Assembly (NCBI GenBank): GCA_027037535.1
Contig: JALVZQ010000005.1
Location: 1-64,000 of the forward strand
Reading direction: 5' to 3'
DNA length: 64,000 nucleotides
From: Acidilobaceae archaeon
GTDB lineage: Archaea; Thermoproteota; Thermoprotei_A; Sulfolobales; Acidilobaceae
Part shown: positions 18,199 to 21,796 of the stretch, piece by piece
Numbering within the stretch: the first letter of the stretch is position 1
How the letters are laid out: every line of letters begins with the position of its first letter
Position numbers and translations under genes: made by a program
Notes under the pieces: generated by a model
Seen by the model: the letters and a program-made list of their open reading frames with translations, nothing else
Database searches by the model: none
What the model was told of the DNA's origin: nothing

Positions 18199-19083
18199 CT
18201 ATAATGAGTGTGCTCCGAGATTCGCTATCTTCCTAGAAGCTATTAGCGACCCGTATTCAGCGGCCTCCCTTATCTGGGCTCCGCGCGCTAGTTTTAGGAG
18301 GGTGCCTGCTGCATAGGCGTCGCCTGCTCCAGTCGTGTCAACGACTTTCTCTGGCTTATATGGTGGAATCCTGTAGTATTTTCCTTCTCTTGCCATGTAT
18401 AGTAGGGATCCCTTAGGCCCTAGCTTTACTATTATATACTTGGGGCCAGTACTAGCGATTATCCTGGCAGCCTCTTCTGGAGGCTTCCCGGTTAAGAGTT
18501 TCGCCTCGTTCATGTTGAGGAGCACGATATCTGTTTTTTCTAGTAGAGGTTTAACCCTCTCTATTCCTAGACTTGCTAGTCTCCTGCCCGGATCCCAGGA
18601 GACAATAGTGTCATTCTCCTTAGCTATCGTGGCTGCACGTATACTGGTATCAATCCTGAGACTAGCAATATGGAGTATTCTGGCCTCACTGATTACCTCT
18701 GTGTCGAGCTCTCCTGGCTCAAGGTGCTCCGCTGCACCCTTGAGACTATATAACGCTAGGTTTCCCCTCGAGTCTATTGTCACAATACTGAAACCCGTCT
18801 TTTTATCTGGGCTTATTCGCAGCCCTCTTATGTCAACCTTCTCCTTCCAGAGCTCCTCATAAATTATTCGGCCGAAGTTATCAAAGCCTATCTTAGCTAT
18901 TATACCGGTTTTTCCGCCTAGGCGGGCTACGTCGATTGAAACGTTTACCGCGGAGCCTCCTGAGCCCCTTGTCTCTTTGATTATTTCAGCTTCCTCGTCT
19001 GGGCCTGGGAACCTGTCCACGAGCATCCTTATATCGATTAGGGCGTGGCCCACTGCGACTACGTCTAGTTTCTTCCGCGTCAT
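18199..19083 (-). CDS. PfkB-family (ribokinase-like) sugar kinase, 294 aa
   Basis: PfkB signature 1 region is [27 protein letters not shown] (about residues 40-66), and signature 2 is [17 protein letters not shown] (about 250-266), including the catalytic Asp of GAGD. The N-terminal VGHALIDI strand and a lid region are present; length is typical. These kinases phosphorylate sugars, sugar phosphates or nucleosides with ATP or ADP. The ATG overlaps the stop of the aldolase gene upstream (ATGA), so the kinase and aldolase are translationally coupled and probably act in one route in which a ketose phosphate is made by one and cleaved by the other. Exact substrate is unknown. Confidence 0.85.
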
Positions 19084-19928
19084 TCTACTATGCCCTCTTC
19101 GTATGCATCTTCTGGAGAGGCTTTTCCTATGAGTACTAGTTTACAGGCCTTAGCCATTGCCTTAATATTTCTGGCCTGGAAAATATTTCGGCCGACTACT
19201 GCTCCAAGAGCTCCTGCCTCGCGGACATCTTTGAGATCTCTCAGGAACTCTATGGGAGTGCTCCTTCTGGGCCCACCACTCATCAATACCGGGATACCTG
19301 AAGCAGCCTCTATTACTTTCTTGTAGGATTCTTTGTCTCCAGTATAATATGTCTTGATAAGGTCCGCACCAACCATTACCGCGGATCTTACTCCATAGAG
19401 TACTACGTCAACCGAGTGTCGGTCCTTAATGGTTGGACCCCTTGGATAAGCTAGTTGTAGGGCCGGAAGACCATACTCCTCCGCGGCATCCCTTATCAAT
19501 GTCCAGTTCCACACCATAACATCCTCCCAAGGACTCCCCCAGTATACCGTTGCGGCCACAGCGTCTGCTCCAAGACGGACAGCGTCATCAACAGATCCAA
19601 TTATACTTTGAAGTAACTGATCTTCCTTGGGCCGTAGACTCGTTTTCCCTGTGATCTTTACAATGAGGCTTGTTCTACCGGCCCATATGTCGGAGAAGAG
19701 GCGAGCGTCTCCAGGTGTAAGCATTACGGCATCTACACCTGCGTCAACTACGGCCTCCAGTATTACGCGTGGATCGAGCCTGTCTTTAGGGAAGTCTATG
19801 GGTCCGTGCTCTAGCCAATGATCAAACGCGAATATCAGGGTTCCTCTAGGATCTATTATTCTAGATAGCCTTACCTTTTTACCCACAGATGAGAAGGCAG
19901 GCTGTACGTTTGCCACTGCTCCATCCAC
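19080..19928 (-). CDS. Class I aldolase of the DhnA/FbaB (LsrF-like) family, 282 aa
   Basis: The conserved N-terminal [15 protein letters not shown], the Schiff-base lysine segment [15 protein letters not shown], and the phosphate-binding end [10 protein letters not shown] and [13 protein letters not shown] are those of archaeal class I fructose-bisphosphate aldolase / DhnA proteins, a TIM barrel that forms an imine with a ketose phosphate. The ligand-binding part is close to both the LsrF and archaeal FBA subgroups, so the substrate could be fructose 1,6-bisphosphate, a deoxysugar phosphate, or 6-deoxy-5-ketofructose phosphate in aromatic amino acid synthesis. It is the first gene of a two-gene operon with a PfkB kinase, which favours sugar catabolism. 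Confidence 0.85.
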
Positions 19929-20130: not shown

Positions 20131-20140
20131 TATATAATTA
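20131..20140 (+). promoter_or_regulatory. TATA box of the permease-nucleotidyltransferase gene
   Basis: TATATAATTA lies so that transcription would start near 20160, about ten bases before a GTG-GTG pair at 20170/20173. This placement implies that translation should begin there and not at the ATG at 20246, which matters for the apparent frame break described for that gene. Confidence 0.45.
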
Positions 20141-20245
20141 TACTAGTTCTAAAGCATAGACTCGAATTGGTGGTGACCAGCATCGAGCAGCAACCATAGT
20201 AAGAGGCTAGGATTCTGGGAAGTATTCTCGATAGGAGTCGGGGGC

Positions 20246-21796
20246 ATGATTGGAGGAGGAATATTCGCCGTACTAGGCCTAAGCCTTCAATTATCTGACG
20301 GAGCCGCTCCAATAGCGTTTGCACTTGCAGGACTAATAGCACTATTATCATCTTATAGCTATGCCAAGCTAAGCAGTAGGTATCCGAGTGAAGGAGGAAC
20401 AATAGAATTCCTTGTCCAAGCATATGGCGATGGCCTGTTAAGCGGAGGCCTAAACATAATGCTTCTCGCCAGCTACATAGTAATGATAGCCCTATACGCG
20501 CATGCATTCGCCAGCTATGGCGCCAGCCTAGTACAAAGCTATTATCATCTGGCATACATTGCCCTAGCAATATTTGTAGTGTCATCTTTAACCATCGTGA
20601 ACATGCTTGGAGCCAAGACAAGTGGAAGAGTAGAACTAGCACTCGTATCATTCAAACTAGGAGTATTGTTATTCGTATCCATGGTAGCACTAGGCCTTGT
20701 CGACTGGCAGAGGCTCAGCCCATCCCATTACCCACCAGTCACAAGCATAATCGCGGGAGGAATGATCATATTCCTAGCCTACGAAGGATTCGAACTAGTA
20801 GCAAACGCTGCAATGGACGTAGAAAACACAAGTGTACTAAGGCGAGCACTATACTCAAGCGTAGTCGTGGTCATCCTAGTATATATCCTGATAGCAATAG
20901 TAGCTGCAGGAGGCCTAAGCCCCCAAGAAGTACAGCAGGCCAGAGACTATGCACTAGCCATCCTAGTAAAACCAGTCCTCGGAATGGCGGGCTTCGCACT
21001 GGTAGTAGCAGCAGCACTTGCAAGCACAGGCTCAGCAATAAACGCTACACTATACGGAACAGCCAGAATGTCATACATGGTTGCCAAATACGGTCAAGCA
21101 CCACGGGTTCTAGGAAAAAAAGTATGGAGAAATGCCTACGAAGGACTCATAATTATAAGCATCCTGAGCCTAGCCCTAGCACTCGGTGCTAGCCTAGAAG
21201 CCATAAGTGCCGCGGGAAGCGGAGGATTCATGATCATATTCTCAATGGTTAACCTCGCCGCTTACCGGCTAAGGAGACAGACCGGTGCAAACCCTACAAT
21301 CACCCTTACTGGAACCATCCTCGCAGTCGCAGCACTGACCATCCTGATATTACGCATGCTCCAGACGGCGCCCGACCAGCTAATCGTCTTCGCAGTCCTC
21401 CTGATAGGAAGTTTTGCCCTCGAGTACGCGTATAGACGCATAACTGGCAGGAGACTACCACGATACATAGATCCACGCCTAGAAGAACGTGAAAAACTAC
21501 TACACGAATATGACCGGCTACTCCCGAGAATAGCCAAAATCATAAAGTCACTGGCTAAAGACGCCGAAGTCTACCTTATAGGAAGTCATGCACGTGGAGA
21601 ATACTGGAAAGCCAACGATATAGACATACTCGTGGCCACCGATAAAGAACTCCCCAGGCACAGGAGAGAAGTACTCCAAAAACTAATAGAAACAGAGCTC
21701 AAACTCCCACGCCACCACCCTATACATCTACATTATACAACCAAGGATGCAAAACAAGAATATCTCAAGAAAGGACACAAGAAAATAACGAGCTAG
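20246..21796 (+). CDS. Amino acid/polyamine (APC) permease fused to a C-terminal nucleotidyltransferase domain; N-terminus disrupted or mis-started, 516+ aa
   Basis: Residues 1-390 carry about eleven to twelve hydrophobic segments of the APC fold. The substrate-binding unwound helix 1 motif reads SIGVGGMIGGGIFAVLG, but its first half lies upstream of the ATG at 20246 in the same frame, which is open from 20177 with no ATG, GTG or TTG. GTG codons at 20170/20173 give MTSIEQQP in another frame, so a one-base frame change near 20180-20200, real or a sequencing error, would join a normal N-terminus. Residues about 410-516 form a minimal nucleotidyltransferase: EVYLIGSHARGEY followed by NDIDILVATDKELP, the GS...DxD signature of the Pol beta superfamily. 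Permease plus nucleotidyltransferase in one chain suggests nucleotidyl-based regulation of transport. Confidence 0.8.
   Translation: MIGGGIFAVLGLSLQLSDGAAPIAFALAGLIALLSSYSYAKLSSRYPSEGGTIEFLVQAYGDGLLSGGLNIMLLASYIVMIALYAHAFASYGASLVQSYYHLAYIALAIFVVSSLTIVNMLGAKTSGRVELALVSFKLGVLLFVSMVALGLVDWQRLSPSHYPPVTSIIAGGMIIFLAYEGFELVANAAMDVENTSVLRRALYSSVVVVILVYILIAIVAAGGLSPQEVQQARDYALAILVKPVLGMAGFALVVAAALASTGSAINATLYGTARMSYMVAKYGQAPRVLGKKVWRNAYEGLIIISILSLALALGASLEAISAAGSGGFMIIFSMVNLAAYRLRRQTGANPTITLTGTILAVAALTILILRMLQTAPDQLIVFAVLLIGSFALEYAYRRITGRRLPRYIDPRLEEREKLLHEYDRLLPRIAKIIKSLAKDAEVYLIGSHARGEYWKANDIDILVATDKELPRHRREVLQKLIETELKLPRHHPIHLHYTTKDAKQEYLKKGHKKITS

Follow-up and report, generated by a model that had tools for sequence, protein, structure and literature searches.

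An ApcT-type amino acid permease fused to a minimal nucleotidyltransferase domain in an order of archaea

A permease and a nucleotidyltransferase in one open frame

The window analyzed here, a stretch of 64,000 nucleotides from an Acidilobaceae genome (contig JALVZQ010000005.1, positions 1 to 64,000), carries on its plus strand a reading frame that stays open from 20177 to a TAG at 21794-21796. The initial annotation had placed a gene at 20246-21796 within this frame and read it as a permease and a nucleotidyltransferase (NTase) joined in a single protein. Direct reading of the sequence gives 516 open codons in that interval, running from the permease into the NTase domain with zero stops between them; the intervening stop named by the annotation as a finding that would undo its reading is absent. 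Pfam assigns both domains to the one uninterrupted product, each above its cut-off: AA_permease_2 at residues 11-392 (E=1.3e-33) and NTP_transf_2 (PF01909) at residues 450-527 (E=2.4e-11; 44.3 bits against a gathering cut-off of 21). An AlphaFold2 model of the whole fusion has a pLDDT of 89.3 and a pTM of 0.89.

The permease half, recognized by phmmer, Foldseek and Pfam AA_permease_2, spans residues 1-418 (20201..21454, plus strand). When searched against the PDB with phmmer, these residues align end to end with ApcT (MJ0609, 3gi9; E=6.6e-64), by far the best PDB family in the sequence search, with the next family well behind. A Foldseek search with the predicted fusion model also returned 3gi9 as the top match (E=2.7e-24, target TM score 0.90). 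Residue K152 of the window protein (20654-20656) aligns with ApcT K158, the Lys at the Na2-equivalent site, and is invariant in 46 fusions. By homology, the ApcT-type permease half is a predicted proton-coupled amino acid transporter. From the same homology and the 12-TM APC topology, its C-terminus, and hence the NTase domain, should lie in the cytoplasm.

Between the last TM helix and the NTase core, the AlphaFold2 model places a linker of two predicted helices (residues 419-452; 21455..21556, plus strand). The minimal NTase core, delimited from Pfam NTP_transf_2 and a model of the isolated domain, occupies residues 453-531 (21557..21793, plus strand). That model has a pLDDT of 92, and its nearest solved folds are HI0073, AF0614 and the MntA antitoxin. 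Alignment of the 46 fusions marks a GSHARGE motif (21581..21601) and the DID catalytic pair, D473 and D475 (21617..21625); alignment of the fusions and their relatives marks HPIHLH, that is, H506-P507-x-H509-x-H511 (21716..21733), all on the plus strand. Also among the solved relatives of the domain is PDB 9z7q, a Cmr1-MntA fusion and so a further example of an MNT domain joined to an unrelated system. We rejected the reading of the domain as a piece of CCA-adding enzyme: TIGR03671 gave 36.9 bits against 281, the two have only the first 70 positions in common, and the same genome has its own CCA-type nucleotidyltransferase at C5:243027. The 489-aa PF01909 frame at C5:243027 was also considered as a second fusion in this genome and rejected, as it is not a permease.

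The annotated interval is open without a stop as described, but the protein cannot simply start at 20246, since the preceding part of this frame (20201-20245) encodes KRLGFWEVFSIGVGG, the conserved first half of TM1. No ATG, GTG, TTG, CTG, ATT or ATC occurs in frame after the upstream stop (TGA, 20174-20176) and before the ATG at 20246. A short frame initiated by GTGGTG and encoding VVTSIEQQP followed by a stop (20170..20199, plus strand) overlaps the permease frame, and entry from it would require a +1 shift. Farther upstream, inspection by eye picked out an A/T-rich, TATA-like stretch, ctatataatt (20131..20142, plus strand), which is a possible archaeal promoter element. The near relative G003 has exactly the same odd start: the stretch that starts at GTGGTG is identical in the two, and the ~20 bases before it vary. 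Comparison of the fusion genes of the window and G003 gives 31 synonymous against 5 nonsynonymous codon changes; therefore, the gene seems not to be dead. Translation in the window may begin either by a programmed +1 shift or by an unusual mode of initiation. A similar lesion occurs in G021: its sister G074 has a GTG in frame, but in G021 a single base appears to be deleted and no in-frame start is left (L080, L104).

Distribution of the fusion and conservation of its metal site

The initial annotation had proposed a search for the same architecture in archaeal genomes. We built a profile (A1) from 25 fusions and ran it over 214 genomes of the order, where it recovered full-length fused proteins of ~530 aa in 47. 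By GTDB-style classification these fall into six families (f1, f2, f6, f7, f9 and f10), with contig-end fragments in f8, and the named GTDB representative records with the fusion include Acidilobaceae, Aeropyrum, Thermodiscus and Desulfurococcales MAGs. Sequence divergence across the fusions is roughly 50%. Because 47 of the 214 genomes share the architecture and D473 and D475 are kept in all 46 aligned fusions, the fusion is neither a chance joining nor an assembly join, and we regard it as confirmed. Two observations lean toward an artefact or a decaying gene, namely the lack of a usual in-frame start ahead of TM1 and the existence of broken copies with several stops and frame changes in G024 (C9:4191-5582) and G084 (C74:3250-4428). 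Against these stand the 47 genomes and the excess of synonymous changes between two genes that both have the odd start; for the fusion itself, an artefact is refuted, and the probability that we leave to it is negligible.

In a 398-genome sample of the whole phylum, the sole match outside the order at E<=1e-60 was a protein in G529 that consists of the permease alone. This unfused permease (L114, C12:66000-76000) has universal-stress-protein genes on both sides, and their products could possibly serve this carrier as a different soluble partner that binds nucleotides. Fused proteins also occur in MAGs labelled Archaeoglobaceae or Euryarchaeota (L046, JALWDS010000002.1; L048, JAADFH010000022.1); these are either transfers or mis-binned contigs.

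Across the 46 aligned fusions, G461, D473, D475, P507 and H511 are invariant and R465 is kept in 44. Position 462 is Ser in 35, including the window copy, and Gly in 11. The annotation had suggested checking homologues for mutation of the catalytic aspartates, and no such degeneration is seen. It had also described the GS-x(n)-DxD signature of the window copy as complete. GS-x(n)-DxD is indeed intact, but at the position of the third metal-ligand carboxylate the window copy has His. This position, residue 509, sits on the strand that follows the one bearing DxD in the AlphaFold2 model; it is His in 28 of the 46 fusions (the window among them) and Asp in the remaining 18, and on the permease tree it has switched between the two at least 7 times. 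The equivalent position in 17 stand-alone relatives is Glu (13) or Gln (4). Some members of the nucleotidyltransferase superfamily tolerate loss of the third carboxylate. In MntA the third metal ligand is Asp71 (PMC7641770), and the window copy lacks a carboxylate there. His at this position may weaken or change catalysis. So small a domain may also have an active site that is complete only when a partner is bound, as is the case for MntA with HepT.

Substitution patterns were compared in close pairs. For the NTase domain dN/dS is mostly 0.02-0.19 (range, 0.006-0.35), and for the permease, where it could be computed, 0.01-0.19. Both halves are under purifying selection, and the NTase domain is selected as a protein, with its metal-binding Asp pair fixed.

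Origin of the fused domain and its genomic context

In a tree of the domain, 41 fused NTase domains form a single clade (support 100/99) whose sister is an MNT that lies downstream of a HEPN-like gene; the fused permeases also form a single clade in a quick tree (SH-aLRT 85). Stand-alone relatives in the order carry an HPx[E/Q]xH motif, and at almost every locus inspected the gene immediately upstream of them is one of ~135 aa. All six of these upstream genes that we tested are PF05168 HEPN genes, with E values of 2e-25 to 1e-32. The connection to HEPN toxins, which the annotation had drawn for nucleotidyltransferases of this kind in general, thus holds for the MNTs most closely related to the fused domain. 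Therefore, an ApcT-type permease probably captured an MNT once, from a HEPN-MNT toxin-antitoxin pair. Descent with some transfer or loss would be the simplest history after the capture.

In hyperthermophiles, MNT domains rank among the most common proteins, and they are usually interpreted as antitoxins. We looked for PF05168 in 18 fusion genomes and found no match above cut-off in six of them (G003, G019, G007, G011, G079 and G081); a search for PF01934 likewise gave nothing above cut-off in these six, of which five are at least 95% complete. Since the fusion is kept in six genomes without HEPN above cut-off, a general antitoxin role is unlikely. No HEPN gene adjoins the fusion in any locus examined. 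The genome of the window does contain an array of four HEPN-MNT pairs, outside the window at C5:177000-184000; all four of its PF05168 genes adjoin MNTs of their own, ~155 kb from the fusion.

An all-against-all comparison of the neighborhoods of 45 fusion loci revealed no recurring partner gene beyond close relatives. In the window, genes for a PfkB-family kinase and a DhnA-like aldolase (18199-19928, minus strand) are divergent from the fusion. The pair also lies next to the fusion in Aeropyrum-like genomes and in G021/G074, three genera only, and is divergent where checked. The lack of a recurring partner, together with the six fusion genomes without HEPN above cut-off, suggests that the target of the domain lies in cis.

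Proposed working, alternatives and known systems

These results suggest that the permease is controlled by attachment of a nucleotide or by binding of one. The initial annotation had offered regulation by nucleotidylation or substrate sensing, and either would be compatible with all of the findings. The reading that we favor, tentatively, is that a domesticated MNT gates amino acid uptake by nucleotidylating the cytoplasmic face of the transporter. In this mechanism, the cytoplasmic C-terminal domain would bind Mg-NTP, most likely ATP, and transfer the nucleotide to a Tyr, Ser or Thr hydroxyl on the cytoplasmic face of the transporter to which it is fused or, alternatively, of a neighboring transporter in an oligomer. 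The usual MNT target, a HEPN protein, would thus have been replaced by a transporter in cis. Nucleotidylation would change the rate of transport, and uptake would be tuned to the energy or amino acid state of the cell. The narrower form of this proposal, a self-nucleotidylating transporter in which a former antitoxin enzyme switches uptake by marking its own carrier with AMP or another NMP, we consider possible but hold with somewhat less confidence. No candidate modified residue stood out in the permease, where nearly all invariant residues are common to the unfused G529 protein. Precedent exists for the chemistry and for the change of role: MntA AMPylates a Tyr of HepT with Mg-ATP through the same GSX10DXD site (PMC7641770), and an earlier proposal has MNTs being domesticated to regulate metabolic enzymes (PMC3710099).

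The main rival, which we judge somewhat unlikely, is a sensor that transfers nothing: the MNT fold would bind metal and NTP or another nucleotide and gate the transporter allosterically. Other APC-superfamily carriers are gated by soluble nucleotide-binding domains, and KimA with c-di-AMP, a carrier with a nucleotide-bound soluble domain, appeared in the fold search. A sensor would also fit the His at the third metal-ligand position in most fusions, the replacement of S462 by Gly in a quarter of them and the universal-stress-protein genes that flank the unfused close relative in G529. However, the DxD pair is invariant in 46 fusions at ~50% divergence, which is stricter than nucleotide binding alone would require, and position 509 varies only between His and Asp, both of which are metal ligands. 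A less probable alternative keeps the transfer but moves the target, so that a different protein at the membrane is modified in trans, such as an enzyme or regulator in amino acid metabolism, with the transporter as the sensor part. The geometry of the fusion would permit this and nucleotidyltransferases of the GlnD/GlnE type do act in trans (PMC3710099), but no neighboring gene is conserved across genera, and the divergent aldolase/PfkB pair is confined to some Acidilobaceae-like genera.

Two further alternatives we consider highly improbable. If the protein were a membrane-tethered antitoxin against an unlinked HEPN toxin, the close relationship of its domain to HEPN-paired MNTs would be readily understood; this idea is disfavored by the pairing of each of the four PF05168 genes in the window's genome with its own MNT and by the six fusion genomes, five of them nearly complete, that lack PF05168 and PF01934 matches above cut-off. 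Nor do we give much weight to vectorial modification, in which an imported hydroxyl amino acid or peptide would be nucleotidylated on entry. Adenylylation of small molecules is known in the superfamily, and ANT(9) and ANT(3'')(9) are weak relatives of the domain, but the domain has no substrate-binding helical domain of the ANT kind and the fusion neighborhoods contain no downstream enzyme.

Both domain families are known; what appears to be new is that they are combined, that this combination is fixed across an order and that the third metal-ligand position switches between His and Asp. A literature search to which most subscription papers were inaccessible found no published permease-nucleotidyltransferase fusion, and the literature searched does not describe amino acid uptake controlled covalently through a nucleotidylated carrier; domain databases may already list the permease-MNT architecture. 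Here, an MNT has been removed from its antitoxin setting and joined to a well-understood carrier of solved fold, and in many genera its metal site has stayed intact; the question of what a domesticated MNT does becomes assayable through the activity of the transporter. If nucleotide transfer proves true, amino acid uptake would be under covalent control in cells where such control has been little studied, and, if the carrier modifies itself, a whole lineage of hyperthermophilic archaea would possess a form of transporter regulation absent from the literature searched.

Each half of the fusion can be set beside known systems. ApcT of Methanocaldococcus jannaschii (PDB 3gi9, 3gia, 3gi8) resembles the whole permease half, with ~34% identity in the structural alignment, and its proton site, K158, has the invariant K152 as its counterpart in the fusion. 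Unlike the fusion, ApcT has no NTase domain; its C-terminal end is the point at which the fusion linker begins. The best structural matches to the isolated domain, HI0073 and AF0614 (PDB 1no5, 1ylq), are single-domain proteins. The stand-alone HPxEIH MNTs of the order, the sister group, share the helix-plus-core layout and the GS, DxD and HP...H motifs of the fused domain, but they are free, HEPN-paired proteins of ~113 aa with Glu or Gln rather than His or Asp at the third metal-ligand position. MntA of HepT-MntA (HEPN/MNT, type VII; PDB 5yep, 7aer, 7bxo) is alike in fold and in its GSX10DXD site. The fused domain scores 21.3 bits against the NCBIfam MntA equivalog, below the cut-off of 60, and differs from MntA in having no HEPN partner, in being joined to a carrier and in its third ligand. 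With the regulatory nucleotidyltransferases of the GlnE/GlnD type, which are soluble, multidomain and trans-acting, the fusion has a likeness in working only and no membership: what they would share is the proposed logic by which an MNT-type domain regulates nitrogen or amino acid metabolism through nucleotidylation (PMC3710099).
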